DNA of 64,000 bases from Candidatus Zixiibacteriota bacterium. Lineage in GTDB: Bacteria > Zixibacteria > MSB-5A5 > GN15 > PGXB01. The DNA lies in the NCBI GenBank assembly GCA_016933695.1, contig JAFGAL010000008.1:1-64000 (forward strand), in the 5' to 3' direction. Position numbers and translations under genes: made by a program. Shown here piece by piece: positions 17,476 to 31,895 of this stretch (positions are counted from its first letter, which is position 1; each line of letters starts with the position of its first letter). Under the pieces are notes generated by a model. It was not told where the DNA came from, made no database searches, and saw only the letters and a program-made list of their open reading frames with translations.

Positions 17476-18583
17476 ATGAGCGTTGATACTAATTCTACCA
17501 TAAGCGATCTGAAAACGCGGCTTGCCAAACTCGGGAGGTTCCTTTGACCTCGACGCGCGCCGCGAGCAAATTACCCGGTTGGAAAAGCTGACCGCCGATC
17601 CCGATTTCTGGAACGACAACCAGAAAGCCCAGGGTATTCTCAAAGAAATTTCCGGACATAAGCGTTGGGTCGAGAAAATCGACACGTTTGAACAGGAACT
17701 GGCCGATGTCGAGGAATTGCTGACACTGACCGAAGGCGAAGAGGATTCCGCCGACGCCAAAGAACTGCAGGAATCACTGGCAGCGCTGGAAGCCGAGATG
17801 GGTCGGCTGGAATTTACCACGCTCCTGTCCGGGCCGGACGATGCCCGCAACGCGATTCTCACCATTCACCCGGGCGCGGGCGGCACCGAGTCGCAGGACT
17901 GGGCCAGTATGCTGTTGCGGATGTATACCCGCTGGTGTGAAAACCGCGGCTATACCACGCAGCTTCTCGACTATCAGCCGGGCGATGAGGCCGGATTGAA
18001 ATCCGCCACACTGCAAATCGAGGGCGAATACGCCTACGGATACCTTCGCGCCGAATCGGGCGTGCACCGGCTGGTGCGGATTTCACCGTTCGATGCCAAC
18101 AGCCGGCGACACACATCGTTCGTGTCCATCTATGTCTATCCCGAAATCGACGACAATATCGAAATCGAAGTCAACGACGAGGATTTGCGGGTTGACACCT
18201 ATCGCGCCTCCGGGGCGGGCGGCCAGCATGTCAACAAAACCTCCTCGGCGGTGCGTATCACGCACCTGCCCACCGGGATTGTCGTCCAGTGCCAGAACGA
18301 GCGAAGCCAGCTGAAAAACCGCGCCACCGCCATGAAAATGTTGCGTTCGCGGCTGTACCAGATGGAACTGGAAGAGCAGATGAAAAAACGCAATGAAATG
18401 GAAAAGACCAAAAAGAAAATCGAATGGGGAAGCCAGATTCGCAGTTATGTGTTTCACCCGTACAACATGGTCAAGGACCACCGCACCGACACGGAAACAT
18501 CGAACGTACAGGCGGTAATGGACGGCGATATCGACACCTTCATCGAGGCCTTTCTGTCCGATCCGGATTTTCGAATAACCTGA
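17476..18583 (+). CDS. prfB: Peptide chain release factor 2, expressed by programmed +1 frameshift; join(17476..17544,17546..18583)
   Basis: GGAGG-like motif, TTC spacer, CTT TGA C slippery site at 17542-17548; [10 protein letters not shown] motif (the RF GGQ) in the downstream frame. Confidence 0.95.
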
Positions 18584-18633: not shown

Positions 18634-19644
18634 ATGTCTGCGTCAAACAATCAAGTTCTCGAGTCCATCAAACAAAAAGCTCGAGCCAAAAATAGAAAAG
18701 TGGTTCTGCCCGAGGGAACCGAACCCCGCACGATCCAGGCCGCCAAAACGATGGTGGCCGAAAAGATCGCCCGGGTGACCCTGCTCGGCGACAAAAATGA
18801 AATCGCCAAACTGGCCAAAGAGCATGGTCTGAATCTCGATACGGTCGAGGTGATCGATCCGGCTCATGCCGACAATCTCGACGAGTTCGTCGATGCATTC
18901 TGCGAACTCCGCAAGAAAAAAGGCATCACCAAAGACGAAGCCGCCAAGACCATGAAAACCGTACTGTTTTACGGCGCGATGATGGTCCGCAAGGATATCG
19001 CCGATGCGTCCGTGGCCGGCGCGGTGAACACCACCGGCGACGTGCTTCGGGCGGGCATTCAGGTGATCGGGCTGGCCCCGAACATCACCACCGTCTCGGG
19101 CGCGTTCATGATGACCATTCCCAAATACCGCGACACGGTCAACAAGGTGTTCATGTACGCCGACGGCGCGGTGGTGCCAAACCCGAATGCCGAACAGCTG
19201 GCGTCGATTGCCGCCGCGACGGCGCAGACGATGAAAAGTCTCACCGGCGAGGAGCCGCGCGTGGCAATGCTGTCGTTCTCGACCAAAGGCTCGGCCAAGC
19301 ACGAGGATGTCGATAAAGTGCTGGCGGCACTGGAAATTCTCAAGAAGAATCACCCGCATATCAAAGCCGACGGGGAATTGCAACTCGATGCCGCGATCGT
19401 GCCGGAAATCGGCAAGAAAAAGGCCCCGGGTTCGGATATCGCCGGCAACGCCAACGTGCTGATTTTCCCCGATCTCGATGCGGGCAATATCGGCTATAAG
19501 CTGACCGAACGGCTGGCCGGAGCCACCGCCACCGGGCCGATTATCCAGGGCATGGCTAAACCGGCCAATGACCTTTCGCGCGGATGCTCGGCGCAGGATA
19601 TCGTGGATGTTTCGGCAATCGCGGTGCTGATGCGCGGCGAGTGA
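18634..19644 (+). CDS. pta: Phosphate acetyltransferase
   Basis: KAKNRKVVLPEGTEPRTIQAA, DGAVVPNPNAEQLA, PGSDIAGNANVLIFPDLDAGNIGYKL; SD AAGGAG before ATG 18634. Confidence 0.9.
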   Translation: MSASNNQVLESIKQKARAKNRKVVLPEGTEPRTIQAAKTMVAEKIARVTLLGDKNEIAKLAKEHGLNLDTVEVIDPAHADNLDEFVDAFCELRKKKGITKDEAAKTMKTVLFYGAMMVRKDIADASVAGAVNTTGDVLRAGIQVIGLAPNITTVSGAFMMTIPKYRDTVNKVFMYADGAVVPNPNAEQLASIAAATAQTMKSLTGEEPRVAMLSFSTKGSAKHEDVDKVLAALEILKKNHPHIKADGELQLDAAIVPEIGKKKAPGSDIAGNANVLIFPDLDAGNIGYKLTERLAGATATGPIIQGMAKPANDLSRGCSAQDIVDVSAIAVLMRGE

Positions 19645-19854: not shown

Positions 19855-22341
19855 CTATTTCAACAACACCATCCTCCTGGTTTCGATATACTCCCCGGCT
19901 TGTAACCGATAGAAATATATCCCCGTCGCGGCATCTTTGCCGTTGTCGACTTTGCCGTCCCATGTCACGATATGCTCACCGTGTGTCATTCGTTCATCGA
20001 CCAGTGTCGCGACCTTCCGCCCCAGAATATTGAATACCTCAAGCGTTACCTTCGAAGTCTTGGGCAAATAGAACCGAATTGCGGTACTCGGGTTGAACGG
20101 ATTCGGATAATTCTGTCCGAGGCTGAAATCACGCGGCAGGGTCTTGTCATCCGGTTCGACCGGGGTCGGCTCCAGAAGCGACGCGGAATCGTAGATACCG
20201 TAAATTTCAATGTCATCGAGATTCCACCCGCCCATGGCATGAACATCGTTTATGGATTCCATCTCCCAGCGCACATAAACAGTGGACTGGCTGTCCGCAA
20301 TCGCTGAAATGTCAATATCAGCCTGAGTCCAGGCGTCGGGCAAGGGCCAGTAATTCGTACACTGCCACACTTGTAACCAATCAGTTGCGTTATTCGACAC
20401 CTCGACGGAGGCCCGTCCTCCGGTTCCCATACAAATCCATTTCCAGAATTTCAACTGCACCTTCAAAAGCATGGAACAGTCAATTGCGGTTGTTGTCAGA
20501 TACGTGGGGGAAAGGTTCTGCGGGTAATTACCCTCAAGATTGTATCCATATACATTATCTCCGGTATTTCCACTGGTCGGGTCGGGACCCAAACCATTCC
20601 ATCCCCCACCGCCGGTCGGCACACCATACTCCCAATCCCCTTCGCAGATCCAGCCCGGATCAGTATCCAGTGTCCAGGCATACCGCGGCGACGGGGTTCC
20701 GATCACCAGCTTGACATACCGTTCGACATCATCTTCAGGATGGCTGAGATTCTTGATTTTCACATGTGCATAATGCGCACCATCACAGAGCACATCGGCG
20801 TTGCTGTTAATCGTAACAACCACTTCGGCCGTATCAAACGCCGTTAACATCCCACCGACATCACCGGAAAGCGTGATCCAATCCTGGTACGGCTCAACGA
20901 CAACCTCGTAGGTAACGGGATCATTGTACTTATGCACGAACGTATACGTAGTCCAGGTGGTGTCGAACGGGCCGCCTGACGGTCCCTCCGATTCCAAATT
21001 GGAAGGCGGCTCCGTTTTCATGGCATAGTTATACGCCAGACCTTTAATACAGAAATTGGCGGTACTGTCATCCTCATATACATCATGCCATCCGGAGACG
21101 GTTTTATAATAGCTCTGTCCCGGCTGAGATGCCGACCGCACGGTTGCGCGCGTTTTGGCACCAAGTAAAACGGGCACATCGGATGTGCAATCATACGGCT
21201 GTCCTCCGTCGGATAAAGCCAGGTACAAGTAAAAATCATCACCGGCCGTAAGCTCGACCCCCTTATCCAGCGACACGGTGTGCAGGCCTTTATAATCAAT
21301 ATTTCCTGACGCTGTTGCCAATTCATCCAGCAACTGCCCGCCCTCGAATCGATCAAAAACAATAACCGTATAATCCACGCTGTCGACAGCGGTGTAGAAA
21401 TTCACCGCCGATAACTGGCTGTTACACTCTGCAGCAAAAGCGTTGAACACTTCGGAACAATCTGCTTTGGTGTTTCGCCAGCCGTGATAATCATGATAAT
21501 AAGCCCGGTCATATGGATTGCGGATAACATTCCGAAACGACACGGCCCCCATTTCCGGATGTTTGGCGCAGTGTTTGTCATAATAGGAAATCCAGAAAAA
21601 GCCGGCATACCCCCAGCTCTCTCACCAGCTGTTCTTGCACAGCCAGGCACCCGGTAATGGCGCATGGGTTGTGAGAGTGTCGTCCCATCCGATAATCGCC
21701 ACAGCATGAGTCGGATCAATGTTAATATCAGGCGGTTGGTAATAGATATAGTTATACATGAAGTAGTCGTCTGCCAAAAACGCCGTTCCCAGCGCCCCGT
21801 CTTCCATAATCCGCGTTTTAATCTCATCGATCCGGCTTAAATCCTCACCGGCAGTGAGAAATTCGATATCTCCTGCATAGTAATAATGGTAGCCGGATTT
21901 ATATCTTTCAGGTGCATTATCAAACGACTGCCCATCGATATCCCGCACCGCGCCCTCAAGTCGGGAAAGGTAGGCCGAGACCATCAAATAATCGCCGCCC
22001 TGGTGAACGGTTACACCTTCACCGTCCGGCGGATTGATATCATCATTATTGTAATCATTAAAGCCATTCCACCAGTCCAGATGGTATTCGGCCAGATTCG
22101 GCTCACCGGTTTCGCCCGCCGCGGTCCAGTAACCGGTCATCATCAGGTTGCTTTCGATAGCCGCCATCGTGCCGTGAGTCCAGCAGGTGCCACCGCTTTG
22201 GCTCTTTATCGACGAGATATAATCCTGCCCGGCAACATTCCGTAAATCGAAACGGGTTGGCAATTCGGCGGCGACGGCGCCGACGAACGCAATTAAGAAA
22301 ACAAGTATTGACAGAAACATTATTTTTAGAAAAGCATTCAT
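19855..22341 (-). pseudogene. Secreted papain-like (C1) cysteine protease with C-terminal T9SS-like sorting domain, interrupted by one in-frame TGA (21622-21624)
   Basis: ORFs 21622..22341 and 19855..21552 share one frame; [32 protein letters not shown]-terminus FSLGQNYPNPFNPST...GIYFYRLQAGEYIETRRMVLLK. Confidence 0.75.
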
Positions 22342-22549: not shown

Positions 22550-22577
22550 TTGACATCGCATACAGGACTATTATCTT
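22550..22577 (+). promoter_or_regulatory. Sigma70-like promoter upstream of flotillin-like gene
   Basis: TTGACA (22550-22555), 16-nt spacer, TATCTT (22572-22577). Confidence 0.45.
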
Positions 22578-22655
22578 TCACGCCGTAAATGGTTGACTTT
22601 TATGGGCGGCGGGCTGTTCTACCGCCTTTTCATCTTTCTGAAGGAGAGCAAAACC

Positions 22656-24056
22656 GTGAGTCCTCTCATCTATGTCATTATTGCCGTTGTCGTCATCGCG
22701 GCGGCCATTATCGTGGTGGTTCTCAAGAACTATCGTAAAGTTGGACCAAACGAGGTCCTGATTGTCTCGGGCGGCAAAAAACGAACGGTCAAAATGCCGG
22801 ACGGGACCGAACGAGAGGTGGGATATCGCTTACGGATCGGGGGGGGCACATTCGTAAAGCCGTTTATCGAACAGGCACAAATTCTTCCGCTGGAAATCAT
22901 CCCGATGGAATTCCAGGTCACCGATGCCATCTCCACCAACGGCATCCGGTCGACGGTGCGGGGCACCGCCGAAGTGAAAATCGCCGGCGATGAAACCTCG
23001 ATTATTCTCGCCGCGGAGCAGTTTCTCGGCAAACCCCTGACCGATATTCGCGATGTGGCCCTGCGCACGCTCGAAGGTTCCACGCGCGCCCTGATCGGTT
23101 CCATGCATCTCGAATCGATCAATAAAAACCGCAAGGAATTCGGTCAGAAAGTGTTCGATGATGTCGGTGAGTATTTCTCCAATATGGGTTTGAAACTGCT
23201 CTCCTATAACTTAAAGGAAATTACCGATCCTTCCGGATATCTGGAAGCCCTCGGGAAACCAAAAATCGTCGAAGCGCGTCGCGACGCAGAGGTGGCCGAA
23301 GCCGAAGCCGCCCGCGATGCCATTATCAAATCGGCCGAGGCCAAGAAAGAGGGAGACATCGCCAAGATTCAGGCCGATGCCGAAGTGGCCGAGGCCAATC
23401 ATCAGCTGGAACTGAAAAAAGCCGACCTGATGAAAGGTTTGAATATCAAGAAGGCCGACGCCGATTTCTCATACGAGTTGGAACGGCATAAACTCAATCA
23501 GGACCTCAAGGCCGAAGAAGCCAAGGTCAAACTGATCGAAAAAGACACGTCGATTCAGCTTGAAAAGAAAGAAATCGAACGCGTCGAGCAGGAACTGGAA
23601 GCCAAAGTCCGCAAACCCGCCGAGGCCGAGCGGTTCCGTCTGGAAGCCGAAGCCAAAGGTATGGGCGAGGCCAAACGGATTCAGGGTATTATCGAGGCCG
23701 AGCTGGTCGCGAAAGTCGGCCAGGCCGAAGCCGAAGCCCTGCGCAAGAAAGCCGAATCCTGGAATGCCTATTCCCAGCCGGCCCTGTTACAGTTGATGTT
23801 CGAGCGCCTGCCTGATCTGGCCCGTGAGATGGCCGCCCCGATTTCCAAGGTGGACAAGATCGTCATGGTGTCCAATGACGGTAAATTGGGCACGTCGAAA
23901 ATTACCGGCGAAGTGGCTTCGATGATGAGCCAGCTTCCGACCGTTGTCAAGTCGCTGTCTGGTTTCGATCTTGAGGACTGGCTCAAGCGGCTGACTGAAA
24001 AGAACAAAGAGCAGGGGACCACAACTCCGCGGTCGAGCGGTTCAGACAAGGAATAA
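22656..24056 (+). CDS. Flotillin-like SPFH-domain protein
   Basis: N-terminal TM, SPFH region, long coiled coil rich in AEAEA; GTG 22656 preceded by AAGGAG (track start 22593). Confidence 0.88.
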   Translation: MSPLIYVIIAVVVIAAAIIVVVLKNYRKVGPNEVLIVSGGKKRTVKMPDGTEREVGYRLRIGGGTFVKPFIEQAQILPLEIIPMEFQVTDAISTNGIRSTVRGTAEVKIAGDETSIILAAEQFLGKPLTDIRDVALRTLEGSTRALIGSMHLESINKNRKEFGQKVFDDVGEYFSNMGLKLLSYNLKEITDPSGYLEALGKPKIVEARRDAEVAEAEAARDAIIKSAEAKKEGDIAKIQADAEVAEANHQLELKKADLMKGLNIKKADADFSYELERHKLNQDLKAEEAKVKLIEKDTSIQLEKKEIERVEQELEAKVRKPAEAERFRLEAEAKGMGEAKRIQGIIEAELVAKVGQAEAEALRKKAESWNAYSQPALLQLMFERLPDLAREMAAPISKVDKIVMVSNDGKLGTSKITGEVASMMSQLPTVVKSLSGFDLEDWLKRLTEKNKEQGTTTPRSSGSDKE

Positions 24057-24059
24057 GCC

Positions 24060-26405
24060 ATGATATCCAACAGGATCGGCCGTCTGGAGATGTCGCCGAC
24101 GTTGCGCATCAATGCCAAAGCCAAGGCAATGAAGGCCGGCGGGATCGATGTCATTGATTTCTCGGTCGGCGAGCCGGATTTCCCCACTCCGCACGATATC
24201 AAAGAGGCCGGCAAAAAAGCGATCGACGATAATTTCACCGGGTATACCGCCAACGACGGGATTCCCGAACTCAAAGCCGCGATTTGCAAACGGTTCAAAG
24301 AAGATCACAATCTCGAATACAAGAACAACGAGATTATCGTCTCGTCCGGCGCCAAACAAAGCCTCTATAATCTGTTCGTCTCGATTCTCAATCGCGACGA
24401 AGAAGTGATCATACCCGCCCCGTACTGGGTGTCCTATCCCCAGCAGGTGCTGATGGTCAAGGGCAAGCCGGTGATCGTGCCGACGCGCGAGGAAAACGGT
24501 TTCCGCATCACTCCCGACGAATTGAAAGCCAATATCAATTTTAATACCAAAGCGATTATTATTAACAATCCCAGCAACCCGACCGGTTCGGCGTATACCC
24601 GCGAGCAGTTGCAGGAAATCTGCGAGATCGCGGTAGCCGAGGGGTTGTTGATCGTCGCCGATGAGATTTACGAAAAAGTCGTCTACGACGGCTATCGGTT
24701 CTGTTCGATCGCGTCGCTCGGCGACAAGATCAAAGAGAAAACAGTCGTCATCAACGGCGTCTCGAAAGCGTATTCCATGACCGGGTGGCGGATCGGTTAT
24801 GCCGCCGGCCCGCGCGAGATTATCTCGGCCATGAATATCGTGCAGTCGCATACGACCTCGAACGCCAACTCCATCGCCCAGAAAGCGGCCGCGGAAGCGC
24901 TTTCGGGTCGGCAGACCGAGATCAATAAAATGGTCGCGGAATTCCAGGCCCGTCGCAATTACATGCTGAATAAACTCAACCGGATTCCGGGCGTTTCGTG
25001 TTATCAGCCGCAGGGTGCGTTTTATCTCTTCCCCAACACGTCGGAGTATTACAACACCGAATACGGCGGGATGAAAATTCGCAACTCGTACGGCCTGTCG
25101 TACTATCTCCTGAAAGAGGCGGCGGTGGCGGTGGTGCCGGGAAGCGCATTCGGCGCCGAGGACAATATCCGGCTGTCGTATGCCACATCGATGGATAAAA
25201 TCGAGAAAGGCACCGACCGCATTGTCGAGGCGATGTCGAAACTGAAGGAATCACCCAAATACAAGCGTATCGCTCTGCAGAACGTGATGACGCATCCGCG
25301 CGGCAATGCCGAAGCCGATACGGCGATTTCGGTCGACGAGCGCGATGCCCTGGTGCAGGAAGCCGAAGCGGCACTCCCCTATGATCGCTATTTCGAATGG
25401 AACGCCAATATCAACGGCATTATCATCCAACTGCGCACCAATGTCCCGCACCTGTATGATTTCTGGGTGGAGAACTGGTATCCGGCGCAACTGGAGTCCG
25501 ATCTGGAACCGCACGGCATTCTCTACGCCGTCGAGGGAGTCCCCGGACGCAAGCCGTACGGATACTACTGCCCCGAGATGCGCACGGCGGTGCTGTTCAA
25601 CACGTCGTACTACGGACAGGTGCGAAGCTGGGCGCTGGCCATGGCGGCGCAGGCCAGCGAGCGTCTGCTCGATGTCCACGGCATCCGCGCGGCCTGTCTG
25701 GATTACAACGGCCGCGGACTGGCGCTGATCGGTCCCAGGGGACTCAAGCGCGGTTCGACGTTTTTCCGCATGCTCGAAGACGGCGATGCGCGGTTCTTGT
25801 CGAACGACTGGGTGTTTGCGCGGTATCGCGGCAATGATGCCATTGCCGATGCACCGGAACGGAAATTCTACATCAAGACCAACATCGCCAAAACGTTCTC
25901 GCGCTTCAATCGCATTTTCGATCGGAGCAAGTGCGAAAACGTGGTCACCACCCGCGCCGACTGGACCAACATGAAAGAACTCGAAGACGAATGTCCGCTC
26001 GATCTCGGGGAACCATACTGCTACTGGGGGTCCGATGATTCCCGGGCGCTGGTTGATCCGGCCTGGATCGGCGGTCCGAATAAATATGTCAAACGTTCCC
26101 GTCTGAAAACGGTCGTGGTGTTATCGCACAACCCCAACGCCCCGGCGGTCGAGAAACTCTCGCAGGAAGAGGCGCTCGATCTGATTACCGAGGGCAAATA
26201 CCGGGTCCCGACCGGTGCGGGAATGTCCCCGTTTAAAACGCAACCGTTCTTCAATCCGTATATGCTGGCGACCTCGGTCGACCAGGAGGATTTGCAGCGG
26301 CGCAATTTCCACCAGTTGTTGAGGGTCGCGAAAGCCTTCAGGGTCAATATCGGATCGATTCCGCCCGAGACGCTGAAATCACGGATCAAGGACTTACTGG
26401 GCTAG
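24060..26405 (+). CDS. Class I PLP aminotransferase (aspartate-aminotransferase-like) fused to C-terminal HprK/PEPCK-like P-loop domain
   Basis: N-term SVGEPDFPTP, NNPSNPTG, GVSKAYSMTGWRIGY; C-term about 380 aa with DYNGRGLALIGPRGLKRGSTFFRMLEDGDARFLSNDWVFARY. Confidence 0.85.
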   Translation: MISNRIGRLEMSPTLRINAKAKAMKAGGIDVIDFSVGEPDFPTPHDIKEAGKKAIDDNFTGYTANDGIPELKAAICKRFKEDHNLEYKNNEIIVSSGAKQSLYNLFVSILNRDEEVIIPAPYWVSYPQQVLMVKGKPVIVPTREENGFRITPDELKANINFNTKAIIINNPSNPTGSAYTREQLQEICEIAVAEGLLIVADEIYEKVVYDGYRFCSIASLGDKIKEKTVVINGVSKAYSMTGWRIGYAAGPREIISAMNIVQSHTTSNANSIAQKAAAEALSGRQTEINKMVAEFQARRNYMLNKLNRIPGVSCYQPQGAFYLFPNTSEYYNTEYGGMKIRNSYGLSYYLLKEAAVAVVPGSAFGAEDNIRLSYATSMDKIEKGTDRIVEAMSKLKESPKYKRIALQNVMTHPRGNAEADTAISVDERDALVQEAEAALPYDRYFEWNANINGIIIQLRTNVPHLYDFWVENWYPAQLESDLEPHGILYAVEGVPGRKPYGYYCPEMRTAVLFNTSYYGQVRSWALAMAAQASERLLDVHGIRAACLDYNGRGLALIGPRGLKRGSTFFRMLEDGDARFLSNDWVFARYRGNDAIADAPERKFYIKTNIAKTFSRFNRIFDRSKCENVVTTRADWTNMKELEDECPLDLGEPYCYWGSDDSRALVDPAWIGGPNKYVKRSRLKTVVVLSHNPNAPAVEKLSQEEALDLITEGKYRVPTGAGMSPFKTQPFFNPYMLATSVDQEDLQRRNFHQLLRVAKAFRVNIGSIPPETLKSRIKDLLG

Positions 26406-26415
26406 GAGAGAGATC

Positions 26416-26838
26416 ATGGCCAATACCCTGGGTATTATCAAGCCGGACGGTGTTCGCAGGAGACTGGTCGGCAAAATAATCGATAAAATAGAAAACGCCG
26501 GTTTGATCATTCGCGGTTTGAAAACACTCAGACTGTCCCGCGAACAGGCGGAGAAGTTCTATGCCGTTCATGAGAGCAAACCGTTTTACAAATCGCTGGT
26601 GGAGTTTATGACTTCCGGACCGATTGTCGTGATGGTTATTGGCGGCCACGGCTCGATCGAACGCTGGCGCGAACTGATGGGCGCCACCGATCCGGCGAAA
26701 GCAAAATACAACACCATCCGTCGGGAATTCGCCACCTCGGTTGAAAAGAACGTGGTGCACGGCTCCGACGGACCGGACACGGCGAAAACCGAAATCGCCT
26801 TTTTCTTTAAAGAGGATGAAATCCTTCCAAAGGAATAA
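26416..26838 (+). CDS. ndk: Nucleoside diphosphate kinase
   Basis: TLGIIKPDGVRRRLVGKII, KNVVHGSDGPDTAKTEIAFFF. Confidence 0.95.
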   Translation: MANTLGIIKPDGVRRRLVGKIIDKIENAGLIIRGLKTLRLSREQAEKFYAVHESKPFYKSLVEFMTSGPIVVMVIGGHGSIERWRELMGATDPAKAKYNTIRREFATSVEKNVVHGSDGPDTAKTEIAFFFKEDEILPKE

Positions 26839-26844
26839 ATCATT

Positions 26845-28701
26845 ATGTCGGATTCCCTGTATGATACCCGCCTGTATGACCGGTTCAGCCGGGATTTACA
26901 GCGCCGCCTGAACGGACCCAATATCAAGGATATGGCGCTGGAGGATCTTCGCGATGCCGCCCTGCAAACCGGCACCCAGACCAAATTCGGCTCCTGGGGA
27001 TGGCGTTCGGCAGTATCCAGTCGCATTGCGGAAAAGACTGTCAATCTCGGTACCGAAAAATCCCGGGAATATCATCTCAGCGATAATAAAAGGAAAATTA
27101 TCGCCGCCGCTCCCGCCGAACTGGACAAGGTTTTACATCTGATGGAAACGCTTCCCTTTGTCCGCCTCCGGCGGCAAATGGGTGACAATGCCGAGTACAA
27201 TCCAAAATGCAACCTGTACATATCGGTTGCCGACCTGAAAAACTATCGCCTGGCGTACATGTGGGGACACACCATGGGCCCGGTCACCAAGGCGCCCGGC
27301 CCGGAGTTCACGCTGATTCATATCCCCGAAGAACACCAAATCCGCCAGCAGGCATTGGTGATGGCCGAACACAATATCACCATGGTGCTTGGATCGGACT
27401 ACATGGGCGAGGACAAGAAGGGTTTCCTGCGCAACGGCATGTTTGCCGCCGGGGCGCTGGACATGCTCGGCCTGCATGCCGGAACCAAGGTCGTGGTCAT
27501 CAGGGATGCCAAAACCAACAAGCTGAAAAAATTCGGCGTCTTCCTGTTCGGGCTATCGGCAACGGGCAAAAGCACCTGGTCATGCCATCAGCTGGGACTG
27601 GACTGGAAAAAAGGCGAGCGGACGCTGGTCTGTCAGGATGATATCTGCTTTTTAAAACACGATGGTTCCGCCTTCGGCTCGGAGCAGAATTATTTCGTCA
27701 AAACTGATGTCGACGCCAAACTGCAGGAATCAATGTATAACGCGCTGGTGCATAGTAGTGCCCTGTATGAAAACGTCATGATCAACGCCGATGGCTCGCC
27801 GGATTTTCTTGATGAAAACCTTTGCGGCAACGGCCGTGCCGTTATCATGCGCAAGCAGTTGAAAATCAACCGTGGACACTGGCCGTTCCATATGAAGGAT
27901 ATCTGGTATTCAAGCCTGAACCTCCCCCCCGTTGAGGAACTCGACGGACTGGTGTTCGCCTTTATCACGCGCCGCAATACAATCATGACTTTCTCGCAGC
28001 GGCTGAATCCGATTCAGGCCGCGCTGGCGTATCTCTGGGGGGAATCATCGCACAGTTACGCCTCCAATCCGGCCAAGGCCGGCGAATCGGTCCGCACGGT
28101 CGGAACCGATCCGTTTATTGTCGGATCGCGCGCCCACAAGGTCAACCAGTTTTACCGTATTATCATGGATCTGGCTGATAATTATCCCGGCAAGGTCTTT
28201 TTCTATCAGTACAATACCGGCGGTATGGGCGAAATTATCGAGGTCGACAAGGAATCCGGCAAAAAGAACATGATCCGCAAGACCGAACGCGTGCCGATCG
28301 ATATCATGGCGGCGATTCAGCGCGGCGATCTTCGCGATACCAACAAATACCGCCGGAGTTTCCTCGGCACCGAGGAAATCGTCTCCGCCGAGGGCGCCGA
28401 TCTCAGCCAGTATGTCCCGGAGAAATACTACTCGCAGGAGCAAATCGACGACTATTTGCGGGACCTGGTCGACGGCCGTCGTAAGTTTACCGAGAAAGTC
28501 GCCGAAGAGGGGCTGATGCCGGAGATCCAGCGGGCCGCGGAAGAATCATACCGTATCGCGCCGGAGAAATCGACCAGCGTGTTTATCCCGGCCAGAAAGA
28601 CCGATATCCCGCCGCCGCCGAAAGACAAGCCCGCCGGCAAACTGACCGACTGGAAACCCAATCCGCGTCTGGTGCGGGACCGGGGCTGGCGCTACGGATG
28701 A
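26845..28701 (+). CDS. pckA: Divergent ATP-type phosphoenolpyruvate carboxykinase
   Basis: MGEDKKGFLRNGMF, FGVFLFGLSATGKST (cf. PckA GLSGTGKTT), ALYENVMINADG. Confidence 0.78.
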   Translation: MSDSLYDTRLYDRFSRDLQRRLNGPNIKDMALEDLRDAALQTGTQTKFGSWGWRSAVSSRIAEKTVNLGTEKSREYHLSDNKRKIIAAAPAELDKVLHLMETLPFVRLRRQMGDNAEYNPKCNLYISVADLKNYRLAYMWGHTMGPVTKAPGPEFTLIHIPEEHQIRQQALVMAEHNITMVLGSDYMGEDKKGFLRNGMFAAGALDMLGLHAGTKVVVIRDAKTNKLKKFGVFLFGLSATGKSTWSCHQLGLDWKKGERTLVCQDDICFLKHDGSAFGSEQNYFVKTDVDAKLQESMYNALVHSSALYENVMINADGSPDFLDENLCGNGRAVIMRKQLKINRGHWPFHMKDIWYSSLNLPPVEELDGLVFAFITRRNTIMTFSQRLNPIQAALAYLWGESSHSYASNPAKAGESVRTVGTDPFIVGSRAHKVNQFYRIIMDLADNYPGKVFFYQYNTGGMGEIIEVDKESGKKNMIRKTERVPIDIMAAIQRGDLRDTNKYRRSFLGTEEIVSAEGADLSQYVPEKYYSQEQIDDYLRDLVDGRRKFTEKVAEEGLMPEIQRAAEESYRIAPEKSTSVFIPARKTDIPPPPKDKPAGKLTDWKPNPRLVRDRGWRYG

Positions 28702-28785: not shown

Positions 28786-29067
28786 ATGACGATGCCGACC
28801 TATCAATATAAATGCACCAAATGCGGCCATGAGTTCGAGGAGTTCCAATCCATGAACGACAAGCCGCTGGAGACCTGTCCGAAATGCGGCGGGAAACCGG
28901 AACGGATTATCAGCGGCGGTGCGGGGTTTTTATTCAAGGGATCGGGGTTTTACATTACCGATCACCGCTCCAAGGCATATAAAGAGGCCGCCGGCAATGA
29001 AACAGGCGGCGCGGTCGTCGAGAAAAGCGACAAATCCAAAAAGGAGACGACCTCATCGGCGGCATGA
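28786..29067 (+). CDS. FmdB-family zinc-ribbon protein
   Basis: MPTYQYKCTKCGHEFEEFQSMNDKPLETCPKCGG. Confidence 0.9.
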   Translation: MTMPTYQYKCTKCGHEFEEFQSMNDKPLETCPKCGGKPERIISGGAGFLFKGSGFYITDHRSKAYKEAAGNETGGAVVEKSDKSKKETTSSAA

Positions 29068-29071
29068 GACC

Positions 29072-30433
29072 ATGAACGACAATCGCCGGCACTATCAGTC
29101 GTTAATCGACCGTTTCGGCACCAGGATTTTGTTCGACACCGATCACTATCCCGAATACTCGCGGGATGCATCGGAAGTCAACGTAAAGCCGGGGTGCCTT
29201 TTTTTTGCGGAAAACGAAACCGATGTCATTGATGCGGTAACGCTCTGCCGGGAATCTTCCATTCCCATCGTGTTCCGTGGCGCCGGAACCGGCTACACGG
29301 GCGGAGCGGTTCCTGTCCCGGACGGACTGGTGCTTTCTTTGGAAAAACTTCGGAAACTGGAAATCGACATCGTTGGCCGTCGCGCCTTCTGCGGGTCGGG
29401 GGTCATTACCATTGACGTGATGCGCGAAGCGGAAAAAGCCGGGTTGTTTTATCCCCCCGATCCTGCCAGTTACGACGAATCCACTCTCGGCGGCAATGTC
29501 GCCGAAAATGCCGGAGGCCTGCACTGCAAAAAATACGGCGTCACCAGAGATTATATCATCGGCCTGCGCGCGGTAACCGCCCGGGGAGAACTCCTGACAA
29601 CCGGCGTCTTTGCAAACCATGAGCTGTTTAATCTCACCGGTGTTTTGATCGGATCGGAGGGCCTCCTGGCCGCGATTACCGAAATCGCCGTGCGGCTGAT
29701 CGATTTCGACCGGACCGGACCGACCATTCTGGCCGCGTTCGACAACGCCGAAAACGCCGCCCGCACGGTGGCGGATATCACCAGAAGCGGCATTATCCCG
29801 TCGGTGATGGAATACCTGGACCGCGACGCGGTCGTTTGCTCGAATCGATACGAAACGACCGTCGAGATCGACCGTGCCGAGGCGGTGTTGCTGTTCGAGA
29901 CCTCCGGCCCGGACGCGTCCGCAACCGCCACGCGGATTCATGATATCTGCCGTTCCCATGCGGCGGTATTACTGCAGAGAGAGGATGATCCCGAACAGGC
30001 GGCACCGCTCTGGAAAGTCCGCCGGAACCTGTCCAAGGCGGTCAAAGCCTCGGCGGAGCAGAAAATTGCCGAGGACGTCTGCGTTCCGCCCTCGCGCCTT
30101 CCGGAGCTGGTGGCGTTCGTGGCCGAACTCAACGCCCGCCTGCCGCTGCGGGTTAATTCCTATGGCCATGCCGGCGACGGAAATCTGCATGTCAATTTCC
30201 TGGTTGAGGAGCCGGAACGGGTCGATCAGGCGCTTATCAACAACGCAATCGGCGGCTTGTTCGCAAAAACCCTGGCACTGGGCGGCACCCTCACCGGGGA
30301 ACACGGCATCGGGCTTTCCAAGAAGGCGTTTCTGCATCTTGAATTCGACGCGGCGACCCGTGCCCACATGAAAAAAGTCAAAGAGGTCTTTGATCCCGAC
30401 GGCATTTTGAACCCCGGCAAAATGTTTGTATGA
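29072..30433 (+). CDS. FAD-linked oxidase (glycolate oxidase GlcD / D-lactate dehydrogenase-like)
   Basis: FRGAGTGYTGGAVPVPDGLVLSLEKL, NVAENAGGLHCKKYGVTRDYI, GHAGDGNLHVNF, GEHGIGLSKK; start ATG 29072. Confidence 0.88.
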   Translation: MNDNRRHYQSLIDRFGTRILFDTDHYPEYSRDASEVNVKPGCLFFAENETDVIDAVTLCRESSIPIVFRGAGTGYTGGAVPVPDGLVLSLEKLRKLEIDIVGRRAFCGSGVITIDVMREAEKAGLFYPPDPASYDESTLGGNVAENAGGLHCKKYGVTRDYIIGLRAVTARGELLTTGVFANHELFNLTGVLIGSEGLLAAITEIAVRLIDFDRTGPTILAAFDNAENAARTVADITRSGIIPSVMEYLDRDAVVCSNRYETTVEIDRAEAVLLFETSGPDASATATRIHDICRSHAAVLLQREDDPEQAAPLWKVRRNLSKAVKASAEQKIAEDVCVPPSRLPELVAFVAELNARLPLRVNSYGHAGDGNLHVNFLVEEPERVDQALINNAIGGLFAKTLALGGTLTGEHGIGLSKKAFLHLEFDAATRAHMKKVKEVFDPDGILNPGKMFV

Positions 30434-30506
30434 TTGCCTGAAACATTCTTACCGGAAAAAAAACGACATTTCCTCGTGAAATATCATAAAACCACCTTCT
30501 GCAATC

Positions 30507-30535
30507 TTGACAAACAATAGCGGATAGCATAATAT
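30507..30535 (+). promoter_or_regulatory. Sigma70-like promoter for citrate synthase
   Basis: TTGACA (30507-30512), 17-nt spacer, TAATAT (30530-30535). Confidence 0.7.
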
Positions 30536-30620
30536 GGCACAATATCATTACGTTCGGAAGGACAGTTGTGAAAGATCCAATTTCTCGTTTTCAATACACG
30601 TTCAACTGTAGGAGTATATA

Positions 30621-31895
30621 ATGGCGACCTTACAGAAAAAAATGGCGGCCATGATTCCTTCACTTCGTGAGGAACTCAAGGAACTCGCCCAAAAAGTCGG
30701 CGACAAGAAGATCTCTGACGTCACCGTGGCTCAGGCGTACGGTGGAATGCGCGGTGTGAAGGGAATGATCTGCGATACGTCAGTCGTATATCCCGACAAG
30801 GGACTCGTGATCCGTGGGATTCCGATTATGGAACTGCGTGAGCGGTATCCCGAAGAAATCTTCTACCTGCTCTGCACCGGTGAACTGCCGGACAAGGCGG
30901 CGTTAAAGGCGTTGCAGAAGGAATTTGCCGAGCGCTCCACCGTACCGAAATACGTCTGGAACGTTCTGGAGGCCATGCCGAAGGATTCACATCCGATGGC
31001 CATGCTGGACACCGGTATCCTCGTTATGCAGAAGGAATCGGAATTCAAGAAGGCCTACGACAAGGGCATGAAAAAAACCGATTACTGGCAACCGATGCTT
31101 GAGGATTCTCTCAACCTGTTGGCCAAGCTTCCGGGAATCGCGGCCGGTGTCTATCGTCTGCGCTTCAAGAAAGGCAACCGCATCGCCTACAAGAAAGACC
31201 TCGACTGGGGTGCCAACTATGCCCGGATGCTGGGTATCACGGATAAAACCGGTATCTTCACGAAGCTGATCCGGCTGTATCTGACCCTGCATTGCGACCA
31301 CGAAGGCGGCAATGTCAGCGCCAACACCTGCCATACGGTCGGTTCCGCGCTGTCCGACGCCTACTATGCGGTTTCGGCGGGTTTGAACGGACTGGCTGGC
31401 CCTCTGCACGGTCTGGCCAACCAGGAATGCCTCAACTGGATTCTGGAAACCATGAAGAAGTTCAAAGGCGTGCCGACCGATGAGCAGATTCGCAATTATG
31501 CCTGGGAAACCCTGAATTCCGGCAAGGTGATTCCGGGGTACGGCCATGCCGTCCTGCGTGTCACCGACCCGCGCTTCAGCGCCTTTTTGGCATTCGGCAA
31601 AGAGTATTTGCCGGACAGCCCGGTCTTCCAGACCGTCGCCAAGGTGTACGATGTGGTTCCGAAAGTGCTCGAAGAGCACGGCAAAGCCAAGAACCCGTGG
31701 CCGAACGTCGACGCCGGTTCGGGTGCGCTTCTGTATCACTTCGGCCTGAAGGAGTTCCCGTACTACACGGTGCTCTTCAGCGTATCGCGTGCGATGGGTA
31801 TGCTCGCGCAGTTGGTTCTCAACCGTGCCATGGGCACCGCCATCACCCGTCCGAAATCGGTCAGCACCGAGTGGGTGAAACAGAACGTCAAGTAG
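30621..31895 (+). CDS. gltA: Citrate synthase, eukaryotic-like type
   Basis: HCDHEGGNVSANTCHTVGSALSD, NGLAGPLHGLANQE, VIPGYGHAVLRVTDPRF, GKAKNPWPNVDAGSG. Confidence 0.93.
   Translation: MATLQKKMAAMIPSLREELKELAQKVGDKKISDVTVAQAYGGMRGVKGMICDTSVVYPDKGLVIRGIPIMELRERYPEEIFYLLCTGELPDKAALKALQKEFAERSTVPKYVWNVLEAMPKDSHPMAMLDTGILVMQKESEFKKAYDKGMKKTDYWQPMLEDSLNLLAKLPGIAAGVYRLRFKKGNRIAYKKDLDWGANYARMLGITDKTGIFTKLIRLYLTLHCDHEGGNVSANTCHTVGSALSDAYYAVSAGLNGLAGPLHGLANQECLNWILETMKKFKGVPTDEQIRNYAWETLNSGKVIPGYGHAVLRVTDPRFSAFLAFGKEYLPDSPVFQTVAKVYDVVPKVLEEHGKAKNPWPNVDAGSGALLYHFGLKEFPYYTVLFSVSRAMGMLAQLVLNRAMGTAITRPKSVSTEWVKQNVK

Follow-up and report, generated by a model that had tools for sequence, protein, structure and literature searches.

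In a window of Candidatus Zixiibacteriota DNA (the whole stretch that was analysed, 64,000 nucleotides long) we identified a gene whose predicted product joins a class I aspartate aminotransferase (AspAT) to a degenerate domain with the predicted fold of PEPCK. The fusion is encoded beside a separate, intact-looking PEPCK and in most genomes occurs together with it, an arrangement suggestive of a dedicated assembly of enzymes centred on oxaloacetate. The positions of the relevant features are given in Table 1.

Table 1 Features of the fusion locus, with their positions in the window
Feature	Position	Strand	Basis
Sigma-70-like promoter match (TTGACA-16-TATCTT), upstream of flotillin gene	22550..22577	+	Consensus scan only, 10/12 matches
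Flotillin (FloT-like SPFH protein), 3 bp before fusion gene	22593..24056	+	PF01145 4.1e-22, PF15975 4.1e-9
Fusion gene, class I aspartate aminotransferase and degenerate PEPCK domain	24060..26405	+	ATG start, 781 aa, without internal stop
Aspartate aminotransferase domain, residues 1-395	24060..25244	+	PF00155 8.2e-81
PLP-binding lysine K236, motif SKAYSMTGWRIGY	24765..24767	+	Invariant in alignment A5
Predicted pseudo-PEPCK domain (P0002), residues 396-781, a domain of ~370 residues	25245..26402	+	AlphaFold2, Foldseek, hhalign
Flexible linker, residues 400-411	25257..25292	+	pLDDT below 50 in full-length model
R543, at PEPCK metal-ligand histidine position (E. coli H232)	25686..25688	+	All fused clades carry Arg, stand-alone relatives carry His
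Degenerate Walker A GPRGLKRG, residues 558-565	25731..25754	+	APTGTGKS here in stand-alone relatives
SND, residues 581-583, at PEPCK Asp-Asp pair (E. coli D268-D269)	25800..25808	+	Alignment to PEPCK
R662, at PEPCK R333 position	26043..26045	+	Present in Zixibacteria clade, missing from most other fused clades
Nucleoside diphosphate kinase (NDK)	26416..26838	+	PF00334 1.6e-54
Divergent PEPCK (P0003), 618 aa, catalytic residues retained	26845..28701	+	PF01293 6.6e-25, above curated cut-off
Intact Walker A GLSATGKS, residues 236-243 of the divergent PEPCK	27550..27573	+	Sequence alignment

Architecture of the fusion protein

The initial annotation of this DNA had described one uninterrupted 781-codon reading frame that opens with a complete class I aminotransferase, and both points were borne out. 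The Aminotran_1_2 match (8.2e-81) spans residues 30-388, and this Pfam match together with the PLP lysine in SKAYSMTGWRIGY assigns the N-terminal half to the class I aspartate aminotransferases; its nearest solved relatives are the AspAT structures 1j32, 6f77 and 6f35 (E < 1e-101). The resemblance to enzymes such as 1j32, 6f35 and 5wmh covers the complete N-terminal half, PLP lysine included, whereas those enzymes lack a PEPCK-like domain. Judged by its sequence, this half is a catalytically complete-looking aspartate aminotransferase, with aspartate as the predicted substrate.

No missing stop codon was found between the two halves, and since a single frame runs across both of them in 59 loci from several phyla, a missed stop or an assembly error is excluded. 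The full-length model contained two folded domains connected by a flexible linker, and their mutual placement was unreliable (whole-protein pTM 0.52); the model is compatible with a tethered partner, without being proof of one.

Fold of the C-terminal domain

The last 386 residues gave no match in Pfam, PF01293 and PF07475 included, and a sequence search of the PDB returned chance-level matches only (E = 1.7). AlphaFold2, supplied with 49 aligned relatives, modelled the domain with a pLDDT of 90.6 and a pTM of 0.90. A structural comparison, which the initial annotation had proposed for this half, was made with Foldseek and led to PEPCK: the PDB gave 134 matches at E <= 0.001 (best E = 1.5e-18), and the best 50 of these 134 were all PEPCK, ATP-type first, with none from HprK. 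Furthermore, hhalign aligned the domain with canonical PEPCK from relatives of the source genome over 324 columns (P = 6.5e-10) and with the PEPCK of the cluster at 1.1e-9. Based on the model and the profile alignments, the domain is predicted to adopt the whole PEPCK fold, with a similarity to PEPCK that is not due to chance.

In comparison to ATP-dependent PEPCK (PF01293; T. thermophilus 1j3b, E. coli 1ayl), the domain shares the overall fold, with TM-scores of about 0.69-0.76 by query length against the ATP-type matches, and the order of the motifs, i.e., Y-x-G, P-loop, Asp pair, ENV, Arg and NTG. It differs in its length (~370 residues versus 520), its degenerate P-loop, the swapped metal-site residues, the fused aminotransferase and the lack of a PF01293 match when searched alone.

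The initial annotation had proposed an HprK/PEPCK-like core. HprK and PEPCK have been placed in one fold group (PMC1079889), and therefore this lead was correct, with the PEPCK side being the right one, over the whole fold, and the HprK side not holding. Weak profile matches to HprK structures (0.0017) and to the Hpr_kinase_C and hpr-ser models extended over only ~60 residues near the P-loop. This region is what the domain has in common with HPr kinase/phosphorylase (PF07475), the domain of which is much smaller, and the remainder follows PEPCK. An HprK identity was ruled out by the length of these matches and by the Foldseek result.

Degeneration of the active site

The numbering and roles of PEPCK residues used here are those of the E. 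coli enzyme; several of these residues are also named in mutant structures among the listed Foldseek matches. The initial annotation had read the P-loop as GPRGLKRGST and the Asp pair as ND, and both were found as described, at residues 558-567 and, as part of SND, at 581-583. All 19 sequences of the Zixibacteria clade carry R-G in place of the K-[ST] of the Walker A motif GxxGTGK[ST], and two further Zixibacteria loci (L034 and L072) have a nearly intact P-loop. At the positions of the metal ligands K213, H232 and D269 the domain has Ser, Arg and Asp, D269 alone being retained. Both K212 and H232 are replaced by Arg in all fused clades, and Asn occupies the first position of the Asp pair in most fused proteins. 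The equivalent of the substrate arginine R65 could not be placed by profile alignment, the N-terminal lobe being too divergent. Degeneracy of the nucleotide and metal sites, as first suggested, thus stands, although only the main Zixibacteria clade has lost the P-loop Lys-Thr; elsewhere the fused proteins mostly retain this pair yet have lost other catalytic residues. Taken together, the alignments and the model indicate that the domain is a PEPCK-fold pseudoenzyme which has lost its own phosphotransfer site.

The dN/dS ratio of the C-terminal domain was ~0.05-0.10 in seven of the eight computable pairs, near the values for the AspAT half; the members of the eighth pair were nearly identical and their ratio is not meaningful. 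The domain is therefore maintained, and a decaying, functionless domain was ruled out.

Gene cluster

The cluster in the window consists of four genes in the order flotillin, fusion, NDK and PEPCK, separated by gaps of 3, 10 and 6 bp; the NDK and the divergent PEPCK downstream had escaped the initial annotation. A single terminator-like match on the + strand between 22300 and 29000 falls within the PEPCK gene (28098). The flotillin matched the FloT scaffold model at 6.3e-102, with a score under the curated cut-off of that model. A flotillin gene lies directly upstream in all fused loci with enough upstream sequence (53/53), and in the remaining six the contig ends within 468 bp upstream. Six large gaps between flotillin and fusion probably arise from a flaw in the stop-codon scan, because the flotillin match ends close to the fusion. 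The NDK adjoins these genes mainly in Zixibacteria. The source genome encodes separate copies of PckA (the canonical one, on contig C31), NDK and other class I aminotransferases elsewhere, and therefore the set of genes in the cluster looks dedicated. On C31 (138909-142906), another class I aminotransferase gene lies ~1.6 kb downstream of the canonical PckA.

Central-carbon genes flank the cluster at 18634-19644 and 28919-31895, i.e., phosphate acetyl/butyryltransferase, an FAD-linked oxidase of the glycolate/lactate dehydrogenase type, and citrate synthase. Elsewhere in the window, prfB (17477-18583, + strand) contains the classic site for programmed +1 frameshifting, AGGTTCCTTTGACC, a known and unremarkable feature. 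On the - strand, a papain-like C1 peptidase is encoded at 21622-22341 and, in a different frame, a lectin-like/FlgD-type/secretion-tail part at 19855-21552; together (19855-22341) they probably represent a single gene interrupted by a frameshift, which may be genuine or due to the assembly.

Distribution and origin of the fusion

Scanning 85,462 species genomes yielded 80 related loci, 59 of which encode the single-frame fusion, in Zixibacteria, Calditrichota, Bacteroidota/Ignavibacteriota and Aminicenantota. The closest relatives by fusion protein are Candidatus Zixiibacteriota, and about one third of the sampled Zixibacteria carry the fusion. The fused proteins form one clade in the tree (support 100/98), which points to a single origin of the fusion. 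The sole "stand-alone" entry within this clade (L053) comes from a contig that is cut inside the gene. A few host assignments look out of place, namely Acidobacteria (L018), Clostridiales (L046) and Thermoplasmatota (L048); these loci fall deep within other groups, and errors of binning or naming are the probable cause.

The operon PEPCK and its co-occurrence with the fusion

The PEPCK of the cluster matched PF01293 at 88.2 bits (cut-off 26.5) and retains the catalytic residues, which assigns it to PEPCK, although against the stricter NCBIfam, with NF006821 as the nearest model, its 284.3 bits lie under the cut-off of 369. An hhalign comparison also identified it as PEPCK (3.3e-13), and in an alignment with canonical PEPCK the equivalents of Y207, K212, K213, H232, K254, D268, D269 and R333 were all kept. 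It has the PEPCK core and the gene cluster in common with the fused domain, from which it differs in its length and intact catalytic residues. A recent duplication of this gene as the source of the fused domain was unsupported, as the profile score between the two is no higher than that to canonical PEPCK.

Co-occurrence was counted from strong matches in genomes that are mostly incomplete MAGs. Among 134 genomes of the Zixibacteria phylum, both genes were present in 37, the fusion without the PEPCK in 3, the PEPCK without the fusion in none, and neither gene in 94 (Fisher 6.6e-30, a value that ignores shared ancestry). The corresponding counts were 11, 0, 0 and 30 in 41 genomes of Calditrichota and, for the two phyla pooled, 48, 3, 0 and 124, kinship being ignored in both. 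The two genes lie on different contigs in several genomes (G046, G111 and G120, among others), and in one single-contig genome (G115) they are 0.58 Mb apart; their coupling is therefore more than linkage. The Saccharicenans group (Aminicenantota) and three Zixibacteria encode the fusion without the operon PEPCK, and the domain must therefore work without it there.

Stand-alone relatives

Proteins of ~357 aa belonging to no known family (L054-L077, e.g., L057:5998-7068) correspond to the C-terminal domain alone. They occur in Deltaproteobacteria, Nitrospirota and other MAGs and are ~35-43% identical to the fused domain; in contrast to it, they have an intact Walker A motif (APTGTGKST), the DD pair and the His at H232, and no aminotransferase. 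R333 is also retained, and all of these proteins have Ser at K213. PF07475 gave weak matches in 14 of 16 (best 5.4e-4), the first member scoring 13.8 bits versus a cut-off of 33.3. In Deltaproteobacteria MAGs the gene often follows guaB, guaA and a LOG-like gene and precedes an S49 peptidase gene, guaB, guaA and LOG being named by eye from the sequences, without a family search. These neighbours, together with glycosyltransferase-like and transporter genes, gave no clear functional hint. No flotillin was found nearby in the loci examined, and the operon-type PEPCK was absent from all searched genomes with a stand-alone protein. Two Zixibacteria without the fusion (G048 and G047) encode a longer stand-alone relative of ~580-600 aa (L114 and L115), with an intact APTGTGKST P-loop and extra inserts. 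The stand-alone proteins with an intact P-loop deserve separate study.

Proposed function and alternatives

The initial annotation had suggested a regulatory or substrate-channelling fusion, and an operon with a separate, intact-looking PEPCK makes such a role more plausible. We tentatively propose, at a little under even confidence, that the aminotransferase belongs to a dedicated module linking Asp, oxaloacetate and PEP, to which it is bound by the pseudo-PEPCK domain acting as a partner or regulator of the operon PEPCK. Whereas the architecture, the fold and its degeneration, the purifying selection, the order of the genes and their co-occurrence come from the data, physical contact, docking, channelling and the direction of flux within this module are what we infer. 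The domain would hold the aminotransferase beside the operon PEPCK, and the flotillin membrane scaffold may also be bound into the assembly. Oxaloacetate derived from aspartate could then be handed directly to PEPCK and converted to PEP, or the path could run in reverse, from PEP to aspartate; the NDK next to PEPCK would recycle nucleotide. The full version of this scheme, in which AspAT, a dedicated PEPCK, NDK and flotillin are assembled through an inbuilt docking or control module, itself a pseudoenzyme derived from PEPCK, so that oxaloacetate is channelled, seems rather unlikely to us as a whole.

The domain may instead be an allosteric sensor in cis, through which oxaloacetate, PEP or a nucleotide tunes the aminotransferase without the domain touching the operon PEPCK directly. 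We regard this as unlikely, although together with the flotillin tether described below it is one of the main alternatives. The Zixibacteria clade retains, in the oxaloacetate/PEP site, the residues equivalent to Y207, G209 and R333 and has lost the nucleotide site, while fused clades outside Zixibacteria mostly keep the P-loop Lys-Thr and have mostly lost R333 and often Y207. A sensor would also account for retention of the domain in genomes without the operon PEPCK. However, the half-sites kept differ between clades, and therefore one conserved ligand is unlikely; moreover, a sensor leaves unexplained why the operon PEPCK occurs only with the fusion.

The constancy of the upstream flotillin gene in the assessable fused loci, greater than that of the PEPCK gene, would fit a domain that tethers the aminotransferase to a flotillin scaffold and so places amino-acid metabolism at a membrane microdomain. 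The membrane-scaffold role of this flotillin is our assumption from the flotillin family, gene adjacency is no proof of contact, and no stand-alone relative has flotillin nearby; we consider this reading quite improbable.

Strong purifying selection on the domain, and the P-loop Lys-Thr retained in fused proteins outside Zixibacteria, could be expected of a domain that has remained an enzyme but whose chemistry has changed and does not require the canonical PEPCK residues. This is very unlikely given the Arg in place of the metal-ligand His in all fused clades, the Asn in place of the first Asp in most fused proteins and, in the Zixibacteria clade, the additional loss of the P-loop Lys and Ser/Thr. 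Least credible of all is a remnant of an HprK-like protein kinase that formerly modified the aminotransferase or another protein, since the weak HprK profile matches that would favour it cover ~60 residues around the P-loop versus 324 columns for PEPCK, and the best 50 of the 134 Foldseek matches are all PEPCK.

Significance

The component families of the fusion and of the cluster are already known. In the literature searched, with most subscription papers outside it, we encountered no description of a pseudoenzyme with the PEPCK fold, of a PEPCK-aminotransferase fusion or of a PEPCK fold acting as a docking or control module. Cells contain little oxaloacetate, which is also unstable, and the physical pairing of the enzymes that flank it has long been debated. 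Here, a predicted oxaloacetate-making enzyme is covalently joined to the remnant of an oxaloacetate-using one, and the combination has been kept in several phyla and paired with an intact-looking PEPCK. The fusion system would thus provide a genetically defined setting for testing channelling or allosteric control.
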